Source: Spiroplasma taiwanense CT-1
GTDB taxonomy: Bacteria > Bacillota_I > Bacilli_A > Mycoplasmatales > Mycoplasmataceae
Direction: 5' to 3'
Assembly: GCF_000439435.1 (NCBI RefSeq)
Contig: NC_021846.1
Coordinates: 434,001 to 498,000 of the forward strand
DNA length: 64,000 nt
Under the pieces are notes generated by a model that did no database searches, was not told the DNA's origin, and saw only the letters and a program-made list of their open reading frames with translations. Below, piece by piece: positions 2,562 to 18,506 of this stretch; positions within the stretch are counted from its first letter, which is position 1; each line of letters begins with the position of its first letter. The position numbers and the translations under genes were made by a program.

Positions 2562-2577
2562 TTTTCCCCAGGGAAAA
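2562..2577. promoter_or_regulatory. Palindrome TTTTCCC-CA-GGGAAAA (site 1)
   Basis: Perfect seven-base arms around a CA centre, 27 bases before the ATG of the 118-aa gene. The left flank GTTATCTATA is repeated, inverted, next to site 3 (5822), giving a 26-base extended element. Candidate operator or ParB-type binding site of the mobile element. Confidence 0.6.
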
Positions 2578-2604: not shown

Positions 2605-2961
2605 ATGGGAAAAAATCAAAAAGTATGACTTTTAAATGCATGATTTCATGGATGAAACGCTAATAAAACAGCATTTGCAATTAAAAGTCCATATAATACG
2701 AAGGGCTTAATTTGAATTCATAAAAATTATTATTTATCAAGCAAATATAAAGGTAGATTTGGAATAGAATTTAATATTCTAAATTACAAAACAAGCAAGC
2801 CGCATTATTATCAAGAAGTAATCTATACTTTGAATTCTAAAATTGTGAATCAAATTTCGGGTGAACAAATTGCAGAATGATTTGAAAATTACAATTCAAA
2901 AAATTCTGAAGAGTATAGATCATTGGTAAAAACTTTAAATGGAGAAAAAATATATGACTAA
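2605..2961 (+). CDS. Unknown protein before DnaC-like loader (118 aa)
   Basis: The frame uses six TGA-Trp codons and ends at 2959, overlapping the next gene by eight bases (ATGACTAA), a sign of translational coupling. The product is aromatic-rich (many Trp/Tyr) with a mixed fold and no membrane segment; an AAGGGA ribosome site lies about 11 bases upstream. Being first in a run with a helicase-loader-like ATPase, it could be a replication accessory or initiator partner. That is inference from position only; I do not recognise the family. Confidence 0.6.
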
Positions 2962-3553
2962 AAGTAATGTTAATATTGATCATGATTTAGAATATAAAAA
3001 TTTTGAAAAATTGTATCCATATTTTATAAATAAAAACCTAAGCAATTTAAAAATTAAAGGTATTTATATTTATGGAATTTCAGGAGTTGGAAAGACTATG
3101 TTTTTGAATAAACTAAAAAAAATTTCAACAAAATCAATTGAATGAATAAATATGGTTGATTGGATTAAATCTCATCAACAAGCTTGAGGAAATTTAGGTT
3201 ATGAAGGAATTCATGTGATTTCAGCAAATAGAGCTGCAATAAAAGAAATTTTATTTATAGATGATTTAGGAGCAGAATTTTTTCATCCATCAACAATGCA
3301 TTATATTTATGAATTATTTGAAAAAAGATTTTCATATAAAAAACAAGTTCCAAATATAATTACTATTTTTACTTCAAATTATTCGCTATTACAATTAGAA
3401 CAAAAATATACTAAACAACTTGGTAAAACAGACACAGAACGAATTATTTCAAGAATTAAAAGTTTAGTTGATTGTGAAATATTGTTTGAAGGAATAGATA
3501 AAAGATCAACTTCGACTATTAATACTAAATTTATTAATGAGATAGAATTTTAA
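2954..3553 (+). CDS. DnaC/IstB-like AAA+ ATPase
   Basis: AAA+ ATPase of the DnaC/DnaI/IstB type, 199 aa. Walker A is GISGVGKT (residues 41-48) and Walker B is ILFIDDLGAE, followed by an aromatic-rich segment and a TSNYS sensor-1-like strand. DnaC family proteins load replicative helicase onto DNA; IstB relatives act with transposases, but no transposase is near. The ATG at 2954 is preferred over an in-frame ATG at 2939 because GGAGAA ends seven bases before it and the gene overlaps its upstream neighbour there. Two TGA codons are Trp. Most likely part of the element's own replication module. Confidence 0.75.
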
Positions 3554-3568
3554 TTTTCCATGGGAAAA
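3554..3568. promoter_or_regulatory. Palindrome TTTTCC-ATG-GGAAAA (site 2)
   Basis: Variant of the element-wide palindrome with six-base arms, lying exactly in the 14-base gap between the DnaC-like gene and the ThiF-like gene. Its GGGAAAATG end contains the start codon of the next gene, so binding here could also affect translation start. Confidence 0.45.
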
Positions 3569-4293
3569 TGAATAAAATAATATTTTTAGTAGGGGTCGGG
3601 GGAACTGGTGGATTATTAGCAGGAAAACTTGCAAAATTTTTAGCACAAGAAGATAAAATTTATCTAATTGATGGTGATAAAGTAGAATATAAAAATGTTG
3701 TACGTCAACCTTTTCAAATTCATGATATAGATGCTTTTAAAGCTGAAAGTTTGGCAAGAAAGATTAACAGCATAAGTCAATTTAAAAATTGTTATTCAGT
3801 CAATAAATTTTTAAATAAAGAAGATTCACTCTTTAAAATAGTAAAGTCAGTTCAAGAACAAACAAATAGTTTAGTAATTATAAGTTGTGTTGATAATCAT
3901 AAAACAAGACTTTTAATTGAAAAATCTATTCAATTATTAAAAGAATTTTTAAAAAAAATGGATTATTCCTATGTAGGTTATCCTAAACCATCTGATTTAT
4001 TTTATATTGACTCAGCTAATGAAGATGATTATGGAGATATTTTAATAAATGAGTTCAGAAGTAAAATTTATAAATTAAAAATTGAGAAAACTGATGAGTT
4101 ATTACTAACAGAAGACTCATGTGAAAACTTAATAAATGATGGAGTCATTCAACAATTTGCTACAAATGATCAAGCAAGTAATTTAATTTTAAGATTTTTA
4201 TTTGATATTGAATATTTTAAGAATAAAAAATGTCATATTAAGTTTGATAAATATAACTCTAAAATTGATATTTTGAAAGGAATTAACAAATAA
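3568..4293 (+). CDS. PRTRC-type ThiF family E1-like adenylating protein
   Basis: ThiF/E1-like Rossmann protein, 241 aa. Visible are the nucleotide loop GVGGTGG (residues 9-15), the E1 signature D35-G-D-K-V-E-Y-K-N43-V-V-R46-Q47 and the ISCVDNHKTR segment (Cys107, Asp109). A later YIDSANEDDYGDILI stretch matches the region that PRTRC ThiF proteins end with (LDLGN...GQV-type). E1-like enzymes adenylate the C-terminal Gly of ubiquitin-like proteins. The gene overlaps the next by one base (TAATG) and sits in a block with E2-like, Ubl-like and ParB genes, which is the defining neighbourhood of PRTRC systems. Family call is firm; the PRTRC assignment is from motif memory and context. Confidence 0.8.
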   Translation: MNKIIFLVGVGGTGGLLAGKLAKFLAQEDKIYLIDGDKVEYKNVVRQPFQIHDIDAFKAESLARKINSISQFKNCYSVNKFLNKEDSLFKIVKSVQEQTNSLVIISCVDNHKTRLLIEKSIQLLKEFLKKMDYSYVGYPKPSDLFYIDSANEDDYGDILINEFRSKIYKLKIEKTDELLLTEDSCENLINDGVIQQFATNDQASNLILRFLFDIEYFKNKKCHIKFDKYNSKIDILKGINK

Positions 4294-4796
4294 TGGAAAT
4301 ACATCATCTAGAATATTTTTTTCAAGGTTTAGAAATTATAAATAATGTTAATCTTGATAGAATTAAAACTTTAAGACGAGAAATTTTGACAAGCAATATT
4401 TATTTGTTACCTTATCAAAGAAACAGATTAATTAAAAGAATAGTGTGTTTTAATGAAATATTTCCAAAAAATGAGGATCGCTTTCATTTACATGAAACAA
4501 TTTTATTAAATTTTTATAATTATCAATTTGAACCAAGATTTTTATTTAAAAATACTTTTGTTAGTTCAACACATCTTCAAAAATTACCTAAATATAAAAA
4601 AAGATATATATTAGAAAAATTTAAAAATACAAAAAATATTGTAATTCATAATATTGATAATGAAGTATATTTTGAGATTAATTATGTTTTAGAAATAACT
4701 AATAATAAAGATTTACTTTTTTTAAAGGAACTAGCAGTTAAATCAAAGGAAATTTTATTTTTAATCAATGAAGCTAAAAATATTAGAAGAACTTAA
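4293..4796 (+). CDS. Unknown PRTRC-block protein (167 aa)
   Basis: Begins at an ATG overlapping the stop of the ThiF-like gene by one base, so it is probably translated by coupling. The product is basic and aromatic-rich, with an RFHLHE segment near residue 65 and a beta-rich half around residues 105-130. I looked for the JAB/JAMM metal motif expected of PRTRC protein A and did not find it. No TGA codon occurs. It may be a mollicute-specific partner of the E1/E2 pair. Family not recognised. Confidence 0.6.
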   Translation: MEIHHLEYFFQGLEIINNVNLDRIKTLRREILTSNIYLLPYQRNRLIKRIVCFNEIFPKNEDRFHLHETILLNFYNYQFEPRFLFKNTFVSSTHLQKLPKYKKRYILEKFKNTKNIVIHNIDNEVYFEINYVLEITNNKDLLFLKELAVKSKEILFLINEAKNIRRT

Positions 4797-5187
4797 TTTA
4801 TTATCTGAGAATCCTTTAAAAAGTAAAAAAATTGATAAAAAAGAATATGATGTTTTTCTTGAAAAAAATAAAGAAAAACAATATTTGTCAGATCAAATTA
4901 AAAAAATAAGAAGTATTTCTAAAACTTGATATATATATGAAAAAATTAGTTCAGACTTAATGAGCTGATCAAAAGATGAAGTTGATTTTGCATGAATTAT
5001 AGAAATAAAAGAATTGATTTCGAAAAATGGTGCTTTATTGAAAATAAAACCTATAGATTTTTATAAATTTTGAGAAGAAAAAAATAATATTGAGAAAAAA
5101 TTGAAAATTACAAAAACACCAGAAAAAGAAATAAAATGTTCGAACTTAAAATTTGAAAGGACTGATAACTATGAAATCCTTTTCTAA
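4768..5187 (+). CDS. Unknown charged PRTRC-block protein (139 aa)
   Basis: The ATG lies 26 bases inside the 3' end of the preceding gene and the stop (5185) lies inside the start of the next, so the frame is locked into a chain of overlaps. Four TGA codons are Trp. The product is highly charged and helical, with possible coiled coil around residues 27-50. The ribosome site is weak (AAAGGA 16 bases upstream), suggesting coupling. Family not recognised; position suggests a role with the E1/E2 proteins. Confidence 0.55.
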
Positions 5188-5716
5188 ACTAAAATTAAAT
5201 TTTGATAAAAATGATAAAGGTTTTTGCCAAGTGGAAATTATTAATAAAAGTGGAATTAGTAAATCTGGTTGAATTAAATTCAATGAATTTCTAAATTGAT
5301 TGTTCTTAAATACTAAAAATAATGAGAGTAATATAGGCTCAATAGATTTTTCCAAAAATCTATTGACTACTAAAACTAATGGAAAAATAACATCATATTA
5401 TTTTTTGTATAATCCCTCAATTAGAGATATTTACGCCTATCAAAAGGGAAAGTATTCTCATAAATCAATTTTTTTACCACCATTAATAACTGAAGTTCAA
5501 ATATCGAATGAAAATATTAATTTTTGAAATATTAAATTATTTGCATTTAATGGGGAATTAAATGCAAATACAAAATTTTATGCATTAAAATTACCTCATT
5601 TTTATAATGATGGAAGTTTATGCTTAGGGAATTTAACAAACTTAAAAAAAGTACAAACTATAAGTCAATTTGATAATTTACTAAACTATATTTTTTCAAC
5701 AAAATTTAGTCATTAA
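5171..5716 (+). CDS. PRTRC protein B-like (prokaryotic E2 family D), truncated by TAA
   Basis: 181-residue product starting at an ATG with GAAAGGA eight bases upstream. Its second half reads like PRTRC protein B: a FLPPLI segment, a hydrophobic strand IKLFAF, T-K-F-Y-A-L, then P142-H143-F-Y-N-D-G-S-L-C151-L-G-N and FSTKFSH. The P-H...G-x-x-C-L pattern recalls the active-site strand of ubiquitin E2 enzymes, making Cys151 the candidate catalytic residue. The TAA at 5714 comes directly after FSH, where family members continue; the same frame stays open for 34 more codons (to 5821) with compatible sequence, so the protein is probably cut short by a nonsense change. Partner of the ThiF-like E1 at 3568. 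Confidence 0.65.
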
Positions 5717-5821
5717 TGAACAAAAGAAAATGAAGAATTTACAAAACCCTTACATTACAATAATGGATTTGAAGGCTTGAAAAATTATACATTTATAAAA
5801 ACTAAATTATTTTTTGAATAA

Positions 5822-5837
5822 TTTTCCCCAGGGAAAA
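5822..5837. promoter_or_regulatory. Palindrome TTTTCCC-CA-GGGAAAA (site 3)
   Basis: Identical core to site 1. The right flank TATAGATAAC is the reverse complement of the left flank of site 1, so the same 26-base element occurs in opposite orientation. Lies 28 bases before the start of the Ubl-like gene. Confidence 0.6.
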
Positions 5838-5864
5838 TATAGATAACAAATAGAGGAGAAAACT

Positions 5865-6305
5865 ATGAGTATTTTTAATCAAGAAGAAAATAATAAAAAA
5901 ATAACATGACCTGAATTTAAGTTTAAAACAGGTAAACAAATCGAAGAAAAAATTGAACAAAAGTTAAAGAAAACAACTACAACTGATGAGCAAGTTTCTT
6001 CAATTGAAATGATTTCAACGCAAGAAAGCAAAGATAAAGTTTTAAAAGAAAATAAAGTAGAAAAAACTAAAATTGATGAAATTTTAAATATTCCAGCGGG
6101 AAGTATATTGAGAATTGATGGTGAAGAATATCAAATTCATATATCAATATCACCAGGTCAAGAAGTTACAAAAGATTATATTCATAAAAAAGTAATTGAT
6201 CCAAATGGATTAATTAATAAATGGGAATATAAGAATGCAAGTCTTTCATATGATAAAGAGGATAATATTTTCTATTATGTAATTGAATCACCGAAGAAAG
6301 GATAA
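5865..6305 (+). CDS. Ubiquitin-like protein, PRTRC protein C-like (146 aa)
   Basis: A charged, helical N-terminal half (residues 1-75) leads into a compact domain (about 79-146) that begins SILRIDGEEYQIHI, continues SPGQEVTKDYIHKKVIDP and ends IFYYVIESPKKG. Length, strand pattern and the terminal Lys-Gly resemble PRTRC protein C, a small beta-grasp protein classed as prokaryotic ubiquitin. The C-terminal residue is Gly146, so no peptidase trimming would be needed before adenylation. GGAGAA lies five bases before the ATG and palindrome site 3 lies upstream. The N-terminal extension is longer than in the usual ~70-residue family. Assignment is by pattern, not alignment. Confidence 0.55.
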
Positions 6306-6311
6306 ATTAAT

Positions 6312-7073
6312 ATGTTTAAAACAGAATTAATTGAAATTGCTAGAATACAACCTAATCCTTCTCAACCAAGAAAAACAATTAATAGAGATTCGATTATTGA
6401 ATTAGCAAATTCTATTTTAAAAGTAGGTTTACTTCAACCAATTATAGTTAATATTAATACCAAAAATGAGGTAAGTTTAATTGCTGGGCAAAGAAGGTTA
6501 GAAGCTTATAAATATTTAAATAAAAAACATATTGAATGTATTTTAGTTCCAGGAGATGCCAGTCAGAAAGATTTTAAACAAGCATCCATAATAGAAAACG
6601 TTCAAAGAGAAGAAATGACTAATTATGATACTGCATTACCCTTAAAAGAACTTAGAAATGACGGTATGAATTTAGAAGAAATTTCAAGTCAATTGGGTAA
6701 ATCAATAAGTTGAGTTTCAAAAATGTTATCGGTTTTAGAATTAAATAATGATGTTCAACAACAAGTTATAGATGGTAGTTTAGACATTTCAAAAGCAGTA
6801 ATTATAGCTAGTCAACATGATTTATCCGATCAAGAAAAAACAATTTTAGCTAATGATGTAGTAGAAAATAAAATTACTAAAAAAACATTGGAAGATAAGG
6901 TTAAAAAAATCAAAAATTATATAGACCCTGAAATTATTCAAATGCAAAATCATATTCAACAGAAATTAGGAACTAAAATTGAAATTAAAGAAAAAAAACT
7001 AATAATGCATTATTTAGGAATTGAAGATTTGAACAAAATTCTTGAAGTTTTAAATTTGAATTATAAGGATTAG
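6312..7073 (+). CDS. ParB-family DNA-binding protein
   Basis: 253 aa, six bases after the Ubl-like gene. The N-terminal ParB/Sulfiredoxin-type nuclease-like domain shows NPSQPRK, ELANSI, GLLQPIIV, LIAGQRR (GERR box with Gln for Glu) and ASIIENVQRE. The helix-turn-helix follows (LEEISSQLGKSISWVSKMLSVLEL). ParB proteins bind centromere sites and slide on DNA as CTP-dependent clamps; the PRTRC cassette is named for a ParB-related member. No ParA is in the window. The TTTTCCC-nn-GGGAAAA palindromes are the obvious candidate binding sites (inference). One TGA is Trp. Confidence 0.85.
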
Positions 7074-7106
7074 AAGTAATAATGAATAAAAAAGAAGGTG
7101 AAACTT

Positions 7107-7358
7107 ATGGGATACAATTTGCTATCAAGAGAGCATTATTTGTGATTAGTAAATATTTCAAAAAATAATAATTATGATGATATACATGAAGCAATGAAAA
7201 TTATAAAGTATCAAAAAAAAGAAGCTGAAACATTGAAAGAAAAATGGATTAATACATCAAAATTAAGTAGAAACCAATATTGAATATTATCTAGTTTATT
7301 GGAAAAATATAAATATAATGACATATTAAATGCTTTAACAAATATCTTTAGTAAATAA
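7107..7358 (+). CDS. Unknown small helical protein (83 aa)
   Basis: Follows parB by 33 bases with GAAGGTGAAA as ribosome site. Two TGA codons and one TGG are Trp. The product is helical with a basic middle; no motif recognised. It closes the parB transcription unit: an inverted repeat AATAACATA/TATGTTATT (7377-7405) follows and overlaps the next promoter repeat. Confidence 0.6.
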
Positions 7359-7539: not shown

Positions 7540-7929
7540 ATGAATTCAGTAAATTTAATAGGAAGAATAACAAAAGATCCTGAACTAAGAAAATCTTCAG
7601 GAGGTAAAGACTATGTAGCCTTTACTGTTGCAGTAAATGAATTTTCAGGAGGGAATCAATTTACACAATTTGTTCCATGTTTTGCTTGGGAAAAAACAGC
7701 AGAAAATATGGCAAAATATGTAAAAAAAGGTGCACAAATTGCAGTTGAAGGAAATTTAAATGTTAGACAAGATAACAACAATGGACAATTTTCTACAGTT
7801 ATTTCTGTTAGAGCGAATAGAATCCAATTTTTAGCATCAAGACATAATGATGAGAATCAACCACATGATTATGAATTAGTTGAAGAAGATACTTGAACTA
7901 ATGATGATTCTATTTTATGAGAGGACTAA
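7540..7929 (+). CDS. ssb: Single-stranded DNA-binding protein
   Basis: 129-residue SSB with the OB-fold start MNSVNLIGRITKDPELR, the FTVAVNEF strand, FAWEKTAENMAKYVKKGAQIAVEGNL and a short acidic tail ending WED. SSB coats single-stranded DNA in replication and transfer; mobile elements often carry their own copy. The tail ends in W-E-D rather than the classical D-D-x-P-F. GAAAGGA precedes the ATG, and leader RNA copy 1 lies just upstream. One TGA is Trp near the end. Confidence 0.92.
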
Positions 7930-8697: not shown

Positions 8698-10512
8698 ATG
8701 ACTAAACTAGTTATATTGGAATCGCCAGGAAAAATTAAAAAAGTAAATCAATTTTTAAATGAAATTGATAAAAACAATAATTATATTGTAAAGGCTTCTG
8801 TAGGACACGTTAGAGAACTATCACAAGAGAATGAATACAATATGGGATTAAAACTTAACTCAATGGAACCTATTTTTAAAGTTTCTCTTGATAAAAAAAC
8901 TATTGTAAATCAATTGATTGAATACTCTAAAAAAGCAGAACAAATAATAATTGCTACAGATCCTGATAGAGAAGGAGAGGCAATCGCTTGACATTTATAT
9001 CAATTATTAAAACCATATAATCAAAATTTTAAAAGAATGAAACTTAATGCAATTACAAAAGAATGTGTACAAAAAGAAATTTTAAATTTGGGATCTATTG
9101 ATCAAAACTATGTTAAAAGTGCATTAACAAGACAAATCATTGATAGAATAGTTGGCTTTAGAATTTCTCCTGTTTTGCAAAAAACTATTGGGGCAGCAAG
9201 TGCTGGTAGAGTTCAAAGTGCTGTTTTAAGAATTTTATGTGATAGACAAAATGAAATTGATAATTTTAGTAAAAAACAATATTTTTATTTGCAAGATGAA
9301 GTAATTGATCAATTAATATTTAAGAATTGCATTTATAATGAACATAATAAATTAGTTATTAATAAAATATATGATAAATCAAAGATATTAGAACTAAAAA
9401 ATAATTTAGATATTAAATTTTTAATCCAAGATATAAAAGAAACTAAATTTGAAGAAAATCATTATAAACCTTTTTCAACAGCTGACATGTTAAAAGCTTC
9501 AAAATCTAAATTAAAGTTAAAAGCAAATGTAACAACGAATATAGCTCAGAGTTTGTATGAAAAGGGATTAATTACGTATATTAGAACAGATTCAAATAAT
9601 TTGGATAAAGAAACAAAAAATAGTTTAATTAATTTTATAATTTCCTATTATGGAGAAAATAAATTAGGAAAATTAATTAAAACTCAGATAAAGGAAACCG
9701 ATCAAGAAGGACATCCAGCAATTACTCCAACTCATTTTGAATGATTGCCAGGAGAAATTGAAAAATATTGTACTGAATCATTATCTAAAAATGAAAAGTT
9801 GTTATATTGATTAATATGGCAAAATACAATTAATTCAATTTATCAAAAACCATCTGGAATAAGAAAAGAAATATTTTTAGAAAATAGGAAAAATTTATTT
9901 TATACTACAATTAAAAGCTATAATGTTCTTGGATATTATGAAATTGATGAATCATTAAACGTGGAAGAAAATATTAAATTTAATTATTCAAAGAATAGTT
10001 TTATTAATGTAAATAATATAAAAATCGTTGAAGATTATGATAAACCACCAAGTAAATTAAATGAGATAACTTTGATTGAACAATTACAAAAACTAGAAAT
10101 TGGCAGACCAAGTACATATAAAAATGCTATTGAAATAAATGTCTTAAGAGGTTATGTTGATGTAGAAAAAAATAAATCAGAATCAATGACTGTAAATGAT
10201 TTAGGATTAAAGGTTAATGATTTTTTAGTAAAAAACTTTATTGATGTAATAAATTTAGACTTTACAAAAAATATGGAAAAGGATCTAGATTTAATTGCAA
10301 CAGGCCAAATAAGTGATTTTAAGGGCTATTTAAAAACGTTTTATACTAAATTAGATAAAATAACTTCGGATTATAATTATGATGGAATGAAGTGCTTAAA
10401 ATGTAATAAAGGCTATATGATTGAACGTTCGTATATAGATAAAAAAACTAAGAATACAAGAAAATTTTTAGGATGTAGTAATTATCCTGAGTGTAAAAAT
10501 GCAGAATTTTAA
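8698..10512 (+). CDS. topA: DNA topoisomerase I (mobile-element copy)
   Basis: Type IA topoisomerase, 604 aa. TOPRIM starts VILESPGK (residues 5-12) and has DPDREGEAIAWH (D88, D90, E92 region); ALTRQIIDRIVGF and SAGRVQSAVLRILCDR follow. Catalytic Tyr294 lies in LITYIRTDS. HPAITPTHFE and EIGRPSTY complete the core, and a single C-terminal four-Cys zinc motif (C-x2-C...C-x7-C) closes it. It is shorter than typical chromosomal TopA with several zinc modules. Conjugative elements of Gram-positive bacteria and mollicutes often encode their own copy, probably to manage supercoiling of transferred DNA. Three TGA codons are Trp. Confidence 0.93.
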
Positions 10513-11269: not shown

Positions 11270-11404
11270 TGTTATTATATTTATAAGGTAAATAGAGCAC
11301 TAGTTTTGTAACTAGCGACTCTATTTTTATATTTTGTGTAACTAGCTGCAAGGCTAGTTTTTTATTTGCCAAGATAATTTTCCCTGGGGAAATAGAAAGG
11401 TAAA
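11270..11404 (+). ncRNA. Promoter plus structured leader RNA, copy 2 (before relaxase operon)
   Basis: 135 bases identical to copy 3 at 17761. Extended -10 TGTTATTAT, then GGTAAAT/ATTTGCC closing stem, AAATAGAG/CTCTATTT with inner CTAGTT/AACTAG, and AACTAGC/GCTAGTT followed by T6. Unlike copy 1 it ends with palindrome site 4 and the ribosome site of the next gene (AGAAAGG). Confidence 0.62.
11378..11392. promoter_or_regulatory. Palindrome TTTTCCC-TG-GGGAAA (site 4)
   Basis: Same element as site 1 in the opposite orientation (TG centre). Located 16 bases before the ATG of the 72-aa gene, at the ribosome site, inside repeat copy 2. Confidence 0.55.
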
Positions 11405-11627: not shown

Positions 11628-13142
11628 ATGATCAAAGATGCACCAGGAGTAATTTTTAAGGTTTTAAAATATAATAAATCAACAAATAGTAATCAATCTA
11701 AGAAGTCACGTGATCATTATTATAAAAATGGAAGTTATTTAGATTATATTTTAAGACCTGATGCAATTTTCAATTTGGATTTAACAGACGAAGAAGTAAC
11801 TAAACTATATAATTTGAGAAATGGTAATAATTCTCAAAAAAATGAATATCGAAAAATATTAAAAGGAATTAATTCAAAATTTAAGTCAACGGGATTATAC
11901 GGAAAAAACGGAATTATGAATGAAGATCAAGTAAAAGATTTAAGAAAAAACATGAAAAAATTAGATGATAATCAAATCATTTGAGATACTATAATTTCAT
12001 TTTCAGAAAAATTTATCAAGAACAATAGTTTATACACTCCTGAAAAGATTGAAAAAGCTTTAAGTAAAGAAATTCCAAAATTTTTAAAAAATAATGGAAT
12101 GAATCCAGAAAAAATGGAATGATTTTATACAATGCATACAAATACTGATAATAATCATATCCATTTAGGTTTTTATGAAAAGGAACCAACAGATTTTGAT
12201 TGAATACGAGATAAGGATAAAAATCAAGTTTTAAATAAATATGGTAAGCCAATTGGTAAAAGAATTTATAAACGAACTGGAGTATTAAAAAGTAAAGCAG
12301 AGTTTAGAGCAGGAATAGATTTAGAAATTCAAAAGGAGTTTATTAATAGTCAAAAATTTAATAAAGATAAATCCCATTTAAGAACACAATTTAAAGAATC
12401 ATGATTTGAAATAGATAAAATAGATAATAAAATATCGTGAAATGAGTGTAAACAAATTTATGTTGATATAAATAAATCTAAAGTTGAGTTATTAGATAAA
12501 ATTGAAATGTTTTCATATTCTTTAAAAGAAAAATTACTCTTAAATTTTGAAACTTTTAAAGATATTCCTATAAAAAAAATAGGATATGGAAGTAAATTTT
12601 TAACAGAAACTGATAGAGAAATGATAGATGAAATTACAAAAGATTTTATTAATAGTGATTTAAATTTGAAAAATACATACGATTCTTTTATTAATGAGAA
12701 TAATGAAAGGGCGGATAAAATTTCAAAAATATATGCAATGTATGAATTTGATGAACTCAAAATTGAAGAACAGCCAATATCATTAACAACTGAAGATTTA
12801 CTAAAAAATGAAAAAGATTGAAATTTAAATGATCCTATTGATAAGTTAAAATTTCAAAGATTAAAATTTAGAAATCAACATATAAAATCAAAAAATATTG
12901 ATGGATATTATCAAGGTGTACTTCCTGAATTTGGACAAAAGCTATTAAGAAAAATAATTAATAAATGAAAAGCTGATGAATGAAAACCAAAACCGTGACT
13001 TGAGTTTAACCCTAGCGGCTATAAACGTAATAAAAAATATTTCAGTAGTTTATTATATTTACCCAAAAATTTGTTCAAATTAATTCAAAAAGAAAAACAA
13101 AAAGCAATAAAAACTGCTAATAGAATTGAACATGACATTTAA
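11628..13142 (+). CDS. MobP/MobL-type relaxase
   Basis: 504-residue protein with the relaxase metal-binding signature H170-T-N-T-D-N-N-H177-I-H179 followed by LGFYE. Relaxases nick at oriT and lead the strand into the recipient. The N-terminal region has YILRPDAIFNLD and a Tyr-rich segment (HYYKNGSYLDYI) that may supply the nucleophile; I cannot say which Tyr. The C-terminal part is helical and basic. The gene is the second in an operon with the VirD4-like coupling protein. Nine or more TGA codons are Trp. Family level is well supported; the exact Mob subclass is not. Confidence 0.82.
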
Positions 13143-13444: not shown

Positions 13445-13827
13445 TGAAAGATACTAAATGATTTAATTCAAATAGAAAAATCTTATTATTTATTTTATTA
13501 TTTGTTTCTGTAATATCAATTCCTTTAACTTTTATAATTTTTGTTTTTATAATTTTATTGTTCAAATATAGATTTGATTATAAAAAAATTATTGATGTAG
13601 TATTTAATTTGAATTTTGAAAATGAAAGCACGTTGCTGATTTTAGTGGCAATAATTATTATTGCAATCCACATTATTGCTATATTAGTATTAATTCATCT
13701 TAAAGGAAAAGTAAAGGATACAAGATTAATTAGAGAAGCCAAAGAAAAAAGTTTTGGTAAAGCTAGTTGAATTTTAAATGAGTTTGAAAAACCATTGTCT
13801 AAGTCAGAAAGGAGAGGAAAAAACTAA
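13444..13827 (+). CDS. VirD4/TraG-like N-terminal membrane part (127 aa)
   Basis: Two long membrane helices (about residues 12-38 and 61-85) followed by KSFGKASWILNEFEKP, which resembles the G-x-A-x-W-A segment that links the membrane region of VirD4 proteins to the ATPase. The stop overlaps the start of the ATPase part by one base, with GGAGAGG in the right place for re-initiation. So the coupling protein seems made as two chains by coupled translation, not broken by a mutation; a nonsense-plus-restart origin cannot be excluded. Two TGA codons are Trp. Confidence 0.7.
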
Positions 13828-15941
13828 TGAATCGATTATTGCAATTTGAAAATACATTTACAAGAAATTTCACTGAACCAAGTTTCATAACAAGAACTGA
13901 ATTTGATCATAAAACTAAAAAAATATTATTTTGAGGAATACCTGTAAAAAAAGCAGTACATACTATTACGATTGGTTCAACGGGTAGTGGAAAATCCCAA
14001 AGAGTAATTATTCCATCAGCAGTTATTAATGCTCGCTTAGAATTCGAGAAAAAACCATGTATGGTATTTTCAGATCCAAAAGGTGAGTTACAAACAGAAT
14101 TATCTTCAAAACTGATAACAGAAGGATATGAAGTGTTAATTCTAAATTTACGTGAACCAATGTATTCAAATTCTTGAAATCCCTTAAACAATGCTTATAA
14201 TTTATTAATATCAAGTATTAATTATGTAAAAGAACATGTTAATGAAAAAACATTTAATACTAAAATTCTTTTCAATGATTATGTTAAAAACTCATTATGT
14301 AAAAAACATAAGAAAAATAATTGTGATACTTGTATTAAAGAAATATTAACTATCTCAGATAATATTGATAATGAACAAACAAACAAAAATAGTAATTTAA
14401 ATAGTGTTAAATATCCATTGATATTAACTTTTAAACCAGTTACTATTTTTGAAATTGATGGTTTTTGATTGGTTGATCCAAATTTGGCTAAGGAACTTAT
14501 ATCTGGTGAAATTAACAAACTAAAAAATTTAGCTTATGGTGAAATTAATGATTTAGCCGCGACCTTATTGAATCCTGGAGCTGATGATAAAAATAAGCAA
14601 TGATATGATGGTGCACAGGGAATATTTAAGGGCGTAATATTTGCAATGATGGAAATGATCGAAGAAGATATTGATTCAATTAAAGAAAATCAATTTAATA
14701 TTGTAACTGTTACAACACATTTATCGAACAAAGATAATTTACAAAAATTTTTTAAAAGTTGAAGTGTAGGAAGAGAAACAAATCAATCAGTAATTGCTGC
14801 AAATAAAGTGCTTACCTCTTCTCCACAATCTATTGGTAATTTCTTTTCTATTGTATCTACTGCTTTATCTTTATTTGAGGGAAATGAATTAAGAAGTTTA
14901 TTATGTAAAAATGATATTAATTTATTTGAATTTATTCAAGAAGAAAAACCAAAAGCAATATTTATGGTTGTTCCAGATGATCGAACAGAAAAACATCCTT
15001 TAGCAAGTTTATTTATTTCACAATTATATAAAGCGGGTGTTTTTTGTGCGAGTAAAAATTTAGTTAAAAGAGGTAAAGATGCATTAGATAGAGATGTAAT
15101 ATTTTATTTAGATGAATTTGGTAATTTTCCTCCAATTGTAAATTTTTCAACTATCTTGACTGTCTCTAGAGGAAGAAGAATGTTCTTCAATTTAGTTGTT
15201 CAAAGTTTTGAACAACTAGAAAAAAAGTATGGAAATAGCGATGCAGAAACAATCAAAGCTAACTGTTTATTGACAGTTTATTTAAGATCTGCAAGTTCAA
15301 AAACACATGCTACAATCAGCGAAATGTGTGGTCAAACTACAGTAGAAGTCAGAAATAGTGAACCATCTATTGGAAAAGATGGAAGAAAATATTATCCATA
15401 TCATTTACAAAAAAAGCCTTTAATTGAACCAAGTGACATAAAGCATATATTTCCAGAGCCCAAACCAGGTGAAACAATATTTAATAAATATGCAATAATA
15501 ATTTACCAAGATTCAAATCCAAGTATTGTAGAACTTGAATATGCTTTTAAAATGGATTTAACTTTAAAAGAAAATGAAGTTACAGATTTACCCATTAATA
15601 ATGCTATTGATTTTGAAAATAATTATTATGTTAATTTATTTAAATTAACTATAAAACCTAAGATTCATGACATTGAACAAATAACAGATGATGTTAATTT
15701 AAATGAAGTTAATTTAGAAGAGGAAAATCATAATAAATTTAAAAATAGATTGTTTAAAGATTTATCAAATGCAACAGAAAAGGACATTGATGATTTACTT
15801 GAATTAAAAACTAAAGAACGTCAAATTAGAAATGATTTATATGTACTTCAGTCACGTAGTGAAGATTTATTAAGTACAGATGAAAAAGAACAAATTAAGA
15901 AGTTACAAAAAGAATTAAAATTATTGCTCAAAAAATTATAA
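13827..15941 (+). CDS. VirD4/TraG-type conjugative coupling ATPase
   Basis: 704 aa. Walker A GSTGSGKS (residues 50-57), VFSDPKGEL, and Walker B VIFYLDEFGNFP (D429, E430), followed by SRGRRMFFNLVVQSFEQLEKKYG and a late MCGQTTVE segment, all typical of VirD4/TraG proteins that deliver relaxase-bound DNA to the type IV channel. A loop with four Cys (SLCKKHKKNNCDTC) near residue 155-170 could bind zinc. The C-terminal 120 residues are acidic and coiled. It lacks membrane helices, which are in the gene at 13444. Several TGA codons are Trp; no break in frame. Confidence 0.88.
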
Positions 15942-16006: not shown

Positions 16007-17752
16007 GTGAAAATTAAATTTTGGATTCAAGATTTTAGATCTATAGTTGAGTTAACAGAAATAGAATTTGATTTTAATAAACCTTCACATATTTTTGGAT
16101 TAAATAACTCAGGAAAAAGTAATTTATTTAGTGCAATATCTTGATTTTTTGGAAAATTAGGTAATAAAGAAAATATATATACTTTTTTAACTGAAGATGG
16201 GATATTAAAATTTGAGGGGGATTATCTAAAATATAAACTTAATCATCTTCCAACTGTAAGGGCAAAATTACCAATGAATGGTTTTAAAATAAAAGGAAAA
16301 TTTGAAAGAGTTAATAATATAATTAAAGATTATGAACTTAATATTTCTTTTAAAAATGGTTTTTCTTTTGAAGCGACAAAAAAAGAAACAAAAGGTTATA
16401 TTGATATTTTTTATAATAATTTCGAAAATTACGAAACAGATATTTCAAAATTATTTAATGAAGGTTATAAGAAATTTGAATCATTTTGACCTCAAAATTT
16501 TTTTACTGAAGTAATAAGTAATGAAACATCTACTTTTATTCCTAATTTGAATAACTCAAATTGAATAGAAAAATTGAAAAATTACAAAAAGGAAAAATTA
16601 GTTAAGGAAATTAAAGAAAAAATGATAAATCTATATGATTTATTATATGAATTATATAATGTTTTAAAAAATGATCGAAAAGGGTTTATTGATATTGAAT
16701 GAACATGCGACTACATTTCAAATTTAGAGACCGAGAATAAAGTGCTATCTAAGTTTTATTTAGATGATTTTTTCAATGGTACTCTTGATGAAAATTCTAA
16801 AACTTTAAAAAGAATTTTAAAATCATTAAATGACGATAATAATATAGAAGAATTACTAGAAAAATATTATAAAACTAATGTTGAAACAGTCAAAGATCAG
16901 ACATTAAAAACTGGTTATAAATCAAGTTTTGTAAAATTATTTAATAAAAGTTATTCAAAAATATTTAGTAATATGGCAATGTCAAAAGTACCAATTTGTG
17001 ATATAGATCAAAATACATTAACTATATTAATAAATGAAATTGAAAATAATGGGGATGAGATAATATATGGAACTCCTGAGCCTGAAGAACAAAGCTCTGG
17101 TTATAAGGCTATTATTTGATTTTTAATAATGTTTATTTCTTCAATTAAAAGTTCAGATTTTAATCTTATTTTGTTAGATGAACCAGATAAGAATTTACAT
17201 TATAAACTCCAAAAAAAATTATCTCATTATATGCAAACAGTTTCACAGGATAAAAATGATTGGAAAACATTTATAGGTATAATTTCTCATTCGCCTTTTA
17301 TGTTATTAAATTTTGATCATGAAATTATTTATGTAACAGACGTTAAAAAAGATGGTTCAACAACATTAACTAAACCTAACGGTAATTTTGATAATATTTT
17401 AGAAGAATCATTAACTCCAATTGTTACAGGGTCTATATATAGAGAGTGATTAAACCACTATCTAAAAGAGTACAATAATCCTGAATTATTTTATTTAATT
17501 TTAGAAAGTGATTTATATAGTAAAAATATTCAAGACATTGAAACAAATATTAAGAAACAATATAATGAATTGGGAATTAATATTAAAGTTGTTGAAAAAA
17601 ATTATATATTAAATCCTTTAGAAATTATTGCAGTTAAAGTTGAGGATTCACTACAATTACATAATATTTTAACTACATCGTTTAAAGGAAATACTTCTAA
17701 AAAAATCTTAATTTCAACCAAGTTTATTGAAGATATACTAGATATAAAATAA
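16007..17752 (+). CDS. ABC/AAA15-type ATPase (RecF/OLD-like), unknown role
   Basis: 581 aa starting at GTG with AAAGGAG 10 bases upstream. The N-terminus MKIKFWIQDFRSIVEL and Walker A GLNNSGKSN (31-39) are typical of RecF/SMC-like ATPases of the AAA15/AAA21 type. EEQSSGYKAII (signature-like) and LILLDEPDKNLH (D391, E392) follow. The C-terminal 150 residues do not show a clear TOPRIM domain, so it is not a plain OLD nuclease. It has its own unit between a terminator and leader copy 3. Such ATPases in mobile elements are often defence or abortive-infection genes; that is inference from family and context. Many TGA-Trp codons. Confidence 0.7.
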
Positions 17753-17760
17753 AATTTTTA

Positions 17761-17895
17761 TGTTATTATATTTATAAGGTAAATAGAGCACTAGTTTTGT
17801 AACTAGCGACTCTATTTTTATATTTTGTGTAACTAGCTGCAAGGCTAGTTTTTTATTTGCCAAGATAATTTTCCCTGGGGAAATAGAAAGGTAAA
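17761..17895 (+). ncRNA. Promoter plus structured leader RNA, copy 3 (before VirB4-like gene)
   Basis: Identical over 135 bases to copy 2 (11270), including extended -10, both hairpins, T run, palindrome and ribosome site. The two copies flank the relaxase/coupling/ATPase block as direct repeats, so recombination between them could excise that 6.5-kb block. Confidence 0.62.
17869..17883. promoter_or_regulatory. Palindrome TTTTCCC-TG-GGGAAA (site 5)
   Basis: Same sequence and position relative to the next start codon as site 4, within repeat copy 3. Confidence 0.55.
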
Positions 17896-17900
17896 TAAAA

Positions 17901-18506
17901 ATGAATGGAATAATTCCAAAAAAATTAGGTAGTCAAAAATTAAAAGTTAAAGGAAATGTAACAATAATTGATCTAGTTTGTATATTAGTTTTTATTGTGA
18001 TTGCTGTAGCTGTGGCCGCACCATTAACAATTATTGGATGATTAGGACAAACTATAATAGGAGTCGCAATTTTTCTAACATTAACAGTCTTATTAATTCC
18101 AAATAAGAAGACTGGAATGAGGCTTTATAATTTAATCTATTTTATGTTTAAATTTAAATCTTCAAAAAAAGAATTTTTAAAAGAATCAAGTGAGAATAAT
18201 ACTGCTTTATTAATGCCTTATAAAGAGTTAGTGGACAATAACGATGATTTGGGAATAATAAAAACTGACTTTTTATATGAGAATACTGCTTTTTATATTG
18301 CAGCAATTGAAATCGAAGGTTTTAATATATTAAATATGTCCTTTGAAGAACAAGAAAGAAAAATTAATGCAATTAAAAACTTATGAGCAAATCTTGAAAT
18401 AAACTGTTCTTTGATAAAAATTGAAAAAACTTAAAATTGAAATTTATAGAACATCAATACAATGATCAAGAATGTATATTGATAAAGAATTTAAACAAGT
18501 ATCTAA
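17901..18506 (+). pseudogene. VirB4/TraE-like N-terminal fragment
   Basis: 177 residues are readable from the ATG at 17901: a basic N-terminus, two membrane helices (about 22-42 and 47-65), then a domain with GIIKTDFLYENTAFYIAAIEIEGFNILNMSFEEQERKI, which resembles the N-terminal part of TraE/VirB4-type conjugation ATPases of mollicute and Gram-positive elements. A stop comes at 18432; adding one A in the preceding A6 run would extend the frame (NLKLKFIEHQYNDQECILIKNL) into the junction. The Walker motifs and all later VirB4 sequence are missing because the gene is joined here to a glycosidase gene. Family call is moderate. Confidence 0.6.

Follow-up and report, generated by a model that had tools for sequence, protein, structure and literature searches.

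A candidate E1–E2–ubiquitin-like conjugation cassette in a conjugative-type element of Spiroplasma taiwanense

Among described systems, the fourth operon type (6d) of Iyer et al. 2006 (PMC1779556) is marked by E2 proteins with a Cys and a downstream His, and includes the PRTRC locus of plasmid pMOL28 from Cupriavidus metallidurans (L035). We analysed a six-gene cassette related to these systems in Spiroplasma taiwanense CT-1, within a stretch of 64,000 nucleotides (C2:434001-498000 of a two-contig, 1.09 Mb genome of about 22% GC), referred to here as the window. Like type 6d/PRTRC loci, the cassette combines a ThiF E1, an E2 of family D with Cys and downstream His, a small protein ending in Gly and a neighbouring ParB gene on mobile DNA; unlike them, it has no JAB, E or F protein and no PRTRC-type ParB, its gene order differs, and two extra proteins lie between E1 and E2. 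Judged from its protein families, it belongs to the E1/E2-D class; by the ParB, A, E and F proteins that define a PRTRC system, it does not qualify as one. We interpret the cassette, with a probability of roughly 55%, as a minimal conjugation module of E1, E2 and ubiquitin-like protein (Ubl) that belongs to an integrated conjugative-type element and is co-regulated with DNA transfer. In the open-access literature, a scope outside which most subscription papers lie, we found no mollicute described as carrying such a system.

Read with the code in which TGA specifies Trp, the cassette consists of six open reading frames (ORFs) in the order ThiF, X1, X2, E2, C and ParB.

3568..4293, + strand: ThiF/E1-like adenylyltransferase, 241 amino acids (PF00899, PRTRC_ThiF, invariant columns, tree)
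4293..4796, + strand: X1, 167 amino acids, no family, conserved at 46-47%
4768..5187, + strand: X2, 139 amino acids, no family, overlapping X1 and E2, conserved at 47%
5171..5716, + strand: E2-like protein (Prok-E2_D/PRTRC-B) with Cys151 and His181 (PF14460, hhalign, Cys alignment)
5865..6305, + strand: C, candidate ubiquitin-like protein, 146 amino acids (KKG end; position and architecture as in Bacilli cassettes)
6312..7073, + strand: ParB/Spo0J-type DNA-binding protein, 253 amino acids (ParB family scores, KorB domain)

The gene order is identical in two sister genomes, G106 and G124, and is found in decayed form in a third, G150; in all three the cassette lies within an element bearing a MobL relaxase, VirD4 and VirB4. 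The window proteins are 46-70% identical to those of the sister cassettes, and the ratio of nonsynonymous to synonymous substitution rates (dN/dS) is 0.19-0.26 for ThiF and 0.12-0.31 for E2 (0.19 and 0.12, respectively, in the closest pair, G106/G124). The recurrent order and the purifying selection identify the six cassette ORFs as real genes. The first-pass annotation of the window had placed six adjacent genes at 3568-7073, where the ORFs indeed lie with all of the motifs it quoted; that range left out neighbours in the same element, namely a DnaI-like ATPase upstream and SSB, TopA, MobL, VirD4 and the VirB4 remnant downstream. Of 198 genomes of the order, 4 carry E2 relatives, and these 4 belong to one genus; ThiF occurs in 7 of 20 genomes of that genus (a weak match in G085, decayed ones in G118 and G168), while ThiF was not found in 40 further genomes of the family. 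Stops and frameshifts mark the copies in G150, G168 and G118, and the C gene has its start shifted within an A-run in G124 and carries an in-frame stop in G150. The G106 cassette reads intact, and VirB4 is full-length there.

Two observations on sister loci stand apart from the cassette of the window. The start of the element is present in three copies in G150 (C1 at about 321, 563 and 630 kb; L021, L019, L022), each decayed differently and all with palindromes, and G085 carries a distant ThiF-like gene (C1 977440-977859, L027; 30% identity) that falls outside this cassette type.

The ThiF protein matches PF00899 with an E value of 3e-16, and its top NCBIfam match is PRTRC_ThiF (48.4 bits, E 7.6e-13; equivalog cut-off 144.75), followed by ThiS-type adenylyltransferases and MoeB; profile comparison by hhalign gave 98.5%. 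In an alignment with PRTRC and prophage relatives it keeps 22 of 22 invariant columns, including GxGGxG, D-x-x-x-V, N-x-x-RQ, the D-x-x-N pair and Ser-Cys, with Cys185 of a D-S-C-E motif as the candidate catalytic residue. A profile of this alignment retrieves ThiF, UBA5, UBA6, Cap2 and BubCD among solved structures, and the protein is an E1-like enzyme without a rhodanese domain. As a homology-based prediction, the ThiF/E1 assignment is firm. The window ThiF is 36% identical to the prophage ThiF of G329 (97 bits) and 23% identical to the PRTRC ThiF of pMOL28 (41 bits). In a midpoint-rooted tree with long branches and skewed composition, mollicute ThiF groups with G329/G474 (94/86) and G377 (93/97), inside a Bacillota clade (100/100) and apart from proteobacterial PRTRC ThiF.

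The product of the gene at 5171 is, by profile comparison, a distant member of the Prok-E2_D/PRTRC-B family. It matches PF14460 with 18.6 bits (E 0.0016), below the cut-off of 25, and the TIGR03737 model itself gives no match; hhalign against a profile of eleven PRTRC-B-like proteins and the G329 protein gave 92% and an E value of 5e-7 over residues 74-181, spanning the Cys motif. All 23 aligned proteins have the Cys. The mollicute, prophage and PRTRC proteins also retain the downstream His, which those of Bacillota plasmids mostly lack, and the position eight residues before the Cys is His in mollicute proteins and mostly Asn in the others. The E2 tree lacks the strength to position the mollicute protein; a Foldseek search with the model of that protein gave nothing usable, and E2 and the G329 Ubl, used as patterns to scan viral and genome contigs, returned no matches.

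When 395 genomes of the class were searched with an E2 profile, three outside the genus matched (G329, G474 and G377). Their loci (L040, L052 and L053) encode a protein of 112-122 amino acids with KKG or TKG at its end, then ThiF, one or two ORFs and E2, with no JAB; phage genes lie nearby, RecT and YqaJ in G329 and a terminase in G377. These prophage cassettes of Bacilli resemble that of the window in having the closest ThiF, no JAB, an N-terminally extended Ubl candidate, one or two ORFs between E1 and E2, and an E2 that keeps Cys and His. They differ in having no adjacent ParB, in their phage instead of conjugative setting, and in the position of the Ubl gene, which precedes ThiF there and follows E2 in the window. 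The cassettes of Bacillota plasmids (Thermoanaerobacterium L043, Paenibacillus L045, Clostridioides L054, Cytobacillus L046) likewise combine E2 family D, ThiF and a Ubl-like protein ending in KG on mobile DNA, but several have JAB or a tandem or fused Ubl, and the downstream His of E2 is usually absent.

Between E1 and E2 lie two proteins, X1 and X2, which the first-pass annotation had called unknown; profile searches give no family for either, and both are conserved in relatives. X1 has no JAMM motif, and X1, X2 and the tested neighbours gave no match to PRTRC E or F models. The G377 prophage also has two ORFs (176 and 119 amino acids) between ThiF and E2, with no significant match to X1 or X2. 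Two identities were considered and rejected. For X1 as a degenerate JAB, the His pair of the window protein is not conserved in relatives; for X1 and X2 as split F-like proteins, support was lacking, X1 showing no link to F-like Bacillota proteins.

The C protein consists of a charged N-terminal part followed by a conserved domain of about 73 amino acids, which is 77-79% identical among the four copies and always ends in ESPKKG, with KKG invariant. The same architecture, a charged N-terminal part, about 70 amino acids and [KT]KG, adjoins ThiF in G329, G474, G377 and Thermoanaerobacterium. Position, size and C-terminus are the pointers that make the protein a candidate Ubl. It differs from PRTRC C in its long N-terminal extension and the lack of detectable sequence similarity. 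Of the C-like protein proposed in the first-pass annotation, the Lys-Gly end is confirmed, and a relationship to PRTRC C would be tentative. In G124 (L023 15580-15780), a Cys-rich stretch, CLNCISECGGTLCVDCC, precedes the Ubl domain; it is absent from the window and from G106.

JAB (PF14464) was found in 0 of 4 carrier genomes, the JAMM motif is absent from the loci, and X1, X2 and the tested neighbours matched no E or F model, in line with the earlier statement that A, E and F are not seen. Some annotated PRTRC loci likewise lack JAB. Among 19 loci with a recognisable Ubl, residues past the terminal Gly are encoded in 0 of 10 loci without JAMM and in 5 of 9 with it (Fisher p 0.011), the loci being hand-chosen and related, the mollicute copies counted as one and the Bacillota Ubl assignments made by position and C-terminal KG. 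The extensions in JAMM loci are tails, a tandem Ubl in Cytobacillus and a Ubl-JAB fusion in Niallia. This count fits a role of the peptidase in maturation, dispensable once the modifier is encoded in mature form, and is suggestive only. On a Niallia circulans plasmid (L055 6540-7493), a Ubl-like domain ending in AKKNG is fused to a JAB domain (HSHHILSPTPSKID), suggestive of a modifier that needs cutting from its own peptidase. On a Cytobacillus plasmid (L046 553-894), Ubl-like units that each terminate in TKG are repeated in tandem and followed by a single additional residue, and the same cluster has a JAB gene. Genes for E2-like, PRTRC_A-like JAB and ThiF proteins are also adjacent in the 217-kb genome of Bacillus phage vB_BauM_KLEB27-3 (L042 1690-4738).

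The last gene of the cassette encodes a ParB-family protein, as first annotated, but not a PRTRC ParB: it has 253 instead of about 560 amino acids and scores 60.3 bits with PRTRC parB (cut-off 278.6), against 118 bits with Noc and 105 with parB_part. It is 25% identical to pMOL28 ParB in the N-terminal part only, contains the CTP-motif-like GQRRLEA and ENVQRE, and matches the KorB domain above cut-off (28 bits). Noc of Bacillus is a ParB paralogue with scattered 16-bp binding sites (PMC8429893). Although Noc gives the best NCBIfam score, the protein begins at the ParB core, without the N-terminal region that bears Noc's amphipathic helix, and a Noc function was rejected on this ground. KorB of plasmid RK2, a ParB-family protein that acts on operators of plasmid operons (PMC11790492), offers a model for the element's ParB, for which operator binding would be analogous; no KorA was seen. 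A second ParB in the genome is chromosomal and accompanied by ParA. ParA is not encoded in the element; its genes are confined to the chromosome and an 11-kb contig. That contig (G000 C1), which is probably a plasmid, carries the second ParA gene at 9108-9647.

An element-specific palindrome, TTTTCCCYRGGGAAAA, occurs at the following places in the window.

2562..2577, + strand: palindrome TTTTCCCCAGGGAAAA, 28 nucleotides 5' of the gene for a 118-amino-acid protein
3554..3568, + strand: palindrome TTTTCCATGGGAAAA, overlapping the ThiF start (TTTTCCCCAGGGAAAA there in G106, G124 and G150)
5822..5837, + strand: palindrome TTTTCCCCAGGGAAAA, 5' of the C/ParB operon
11378..11393, + strand: palindrome TTTTCCCTGGGGAAAT, 5' of the relaxase operon
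17869..17884, + strand: palindrome TTTTCCCTGGGGAAAT, 5' of the VirB4 remnant

Exact sites of the pattern TTTCCCYRGGGAAA number four in the 1.09 Mb genome, 4/4 of them inside the element. G106 has nine within 37 kb (two of these past the DNA read), G124 has six of seven in the element, and all seven sites of G150 lie at its three ThiF copies; the reversed control pattern had 0 sites in the scanned genomes. Genomes without the cassette mostly have no sites, the exceptions being G183 with four TTTCCCCGGGGAAA and G076, G085 and G168 (decayed ThiF elsewhere in the genome) with one or two. The G183 sites (C1 72465-84748) stand in a duplicated pattern with no cassette and perhaps belong to a related element with its own ParB. 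The sites lie 0-28 nucleotides before the start codons of the DnaI-like, ThiF, C/ParB, relaxase and VirB4 operons, and 23 sites in four elements directly precede a gene start; for the window, this placement has p ~2e-4 against non-coding positions, with the gene list set by the analyst. That the asymmetric centre occurs either way round argues for recognition at the level of DNA. The element's ParB probably binds the palindrome, and the sharing of this palindrome by the cassette, relaxase and VirB4 operons is new here.

In the mechanism that we propose for a conjugation module, ThiF would adenylate the C-terminal Gly of the C protein and then carry it as a thioester, probably on Cys185. E2, through Cys151 and with His181 close to the active site, would accept it and hand it over to a target lysine, possibly with X1 and X2 as substrate adaptors. 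As the modifier is encoded with Gly as its last residue, processing by a peptidase would not be needed; since no JAB is present, tagging would be one-way. ParB may act as a KorB-like clamp and repressor on TTTTCCCYRGGGAAAA operators before the cassette, relaxase and VirB4 operons; as it probably binds these operators, the tagging enzymes would be made together with the transfer machinery. More tentatively, a JAB-less E1-E2-Ubl lineage may be common to Bacilli prophages and the mollicute conjugative element, with the ParB clamp and its operators switching tagging on with transfer, and with the element's own transfer proteins or host factors as the modified targets; we hold this wider scenario to be possible but doubtful. 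To our knowledge, every bacterial E1-E2-Ubl system whose role is known acts against phages. If the proposal is true, a minimal-genome, wall-less bacterium would for the first time be seen to have an E1-E2-Ubl pathway. An E1, an E2 and a peptidase-free modifier in about 1 Mb would provide a simple setting for target finding, and the site that the cassette has in common with the relaxase and VirB4 operons would be the first concrete hint at timing, namely with DNA transfer.

Several observations weigh against the interpretation as a conjugation module, whose weakest links are the Ubl fold, the target and the functionality of the window copy. The C protein has no significant profile similarity to any Ubl in comparisons with PRTRC C and six Bacilli proteins, and its profiles score like shuffles (2000; best rank 55-71; the p of ~0.03 obtained with the Bacilli model is disregarded as evidence). 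The AlphaFold model of the protein is not good enough for use (predicted local distance difference test (pLDDT) score of 39), with a low-confidence order of strand-strand-helix-strand-strand. The beta-grasp match envisaged in the first-pass annotation was not obtained, nor is the candidate refuted. The E2 model is also poor (pLDDT 49). Sites so near the ribosome-binding site could also reflect a hairpin in the RNA that acts on translation. The window E2 ends at residue 181 by a TAA (5714-5716), about 35-40 residues before the end of its relatives in G106, G124 and G150, and the lost tail is still readable 3' of the TAA; together with the VirB4 remnant, the missing conserved tail suggests that the window copy may lack activity.

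That the cassette is a decayed remnant without activity in this genome, which would be compatible with an active module in sister elements, is a tangible if doubtful alternative: the cut E2 tail, the truncated VirB4 and the stops and frameshifts of the G150, G168 and G118 copies favour it, but ThiF, X1, X2, the Ubl candidate and ParB are intact, dN/dS is well under 1 for ThiF and E2, and G106 pairs an intact cassette with a full-length VirB4. The label given in the first-pass annotation implies instead a PRTRC system proper, acquired by a mollicute, in which ParB and E1/E2/Ubl act jointly in plasmid maintenance. The best ThiF match, the likeness of E2 to PRTRC-B and the adjacent ParB agree with that label, and the E1-like and E2 family D assignments stand. 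The rest does not: ParB is short, Spo0J/Noc-like and far under the PRTRC_parB cut-off, A, E and F are missing, and ThiF groups with prophage cassettes of Bacilli that have neither JAB nor ParB, so that ParB looks like a separate addition and we consider such a system unlikely.

Two further readings concern the chemistry and its use. ThiF might activate a small protein for sulfur transfer, in the manner of ThiS/MoaD, and not for tagging, as the next-best scores of ThiS-type adenylyltransferases and MoeB would allow; a dedicated E2-family partner with conserved Cys and His, and the absence of rhodanese, cysteine desulfurase and thiazole genes among the identified cassette genes, make this quite improbable. 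A module for defence against phages or plasmids, on the lines of CBASS Cap2/Cap3, Bil or Bub, would account for the match of ThiF to PADLOC E1-E2 models (36 bits), for Cap2 and BubCD among its PDB relatives and for the occurrence of relatives in prophages and plasmids. That no cyclase, effector or JAB is present, that the other five proteins have no PADLOC match and that the control site is common to transfer genes render it rather unlikely.

The remaining identified genes of the element are listed below.

2605..2961, + strand: conserved 118-amino-acid protein, first gene 3' of a palindrome, no family; 67-69% identical in G106/G124
2939..3553, + strand: DnaI/DnaC-like AAA ATPase (NCBIfam DnaI 54 bits), conserved in relatives
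7098..7358, + strand: conserved protein of 82-86 amino acids adjoining ParB; 59-61% identity in three relatives
7540..7929, + strand: single-stranded DNA-binding protein, SSB (PF00436 8.7e-26)
8698..10512, + strand: type I DNA topoisomerase, TopA (PF01131 8.7e-84); 71% identical to G106
11628..13142, + strand: MobL relaxase (PF18555 7.2e-17)
13827..15941, + strand: VirD4/TraG coupling protein (PF02534 5.7e-30)
17901..18434, + strand: VirB4 ATPase N-terminal remnant, 177 of about 896 amino acids; 57% identity to the N-terminus of the 896-amino-acid G106 protein (PF19044 match)

Hallmark genes of an integrative and conjugative element are thus present as relaxase and VirD4 genes in the window, with VirB4 full-length in G106 and a remnant in the window, which bears out the earlier description of a mobile element in a mollicute. 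An AAA_15 ATPase gene (OLD/AbiEii-like; window 16007-17752) also lies in the element; the stretches read of G106, G124 and G150 do not have it. In the window and G124 the element is flanked by aspS upstream (L014/L023) and the IMP dehydrogenase gene (26373), whereas in G106 it adjoins acetate kinase and related genes; the flanking genes differ, and therefore the element has moved. On L014, the stretch separating aspS from the element contains the remnant of a second, diverged relaxase (about 31% identical), some 1.7-2.6 kb ahead of the window's first position; it perhaps stems from an older insertion at the same place.

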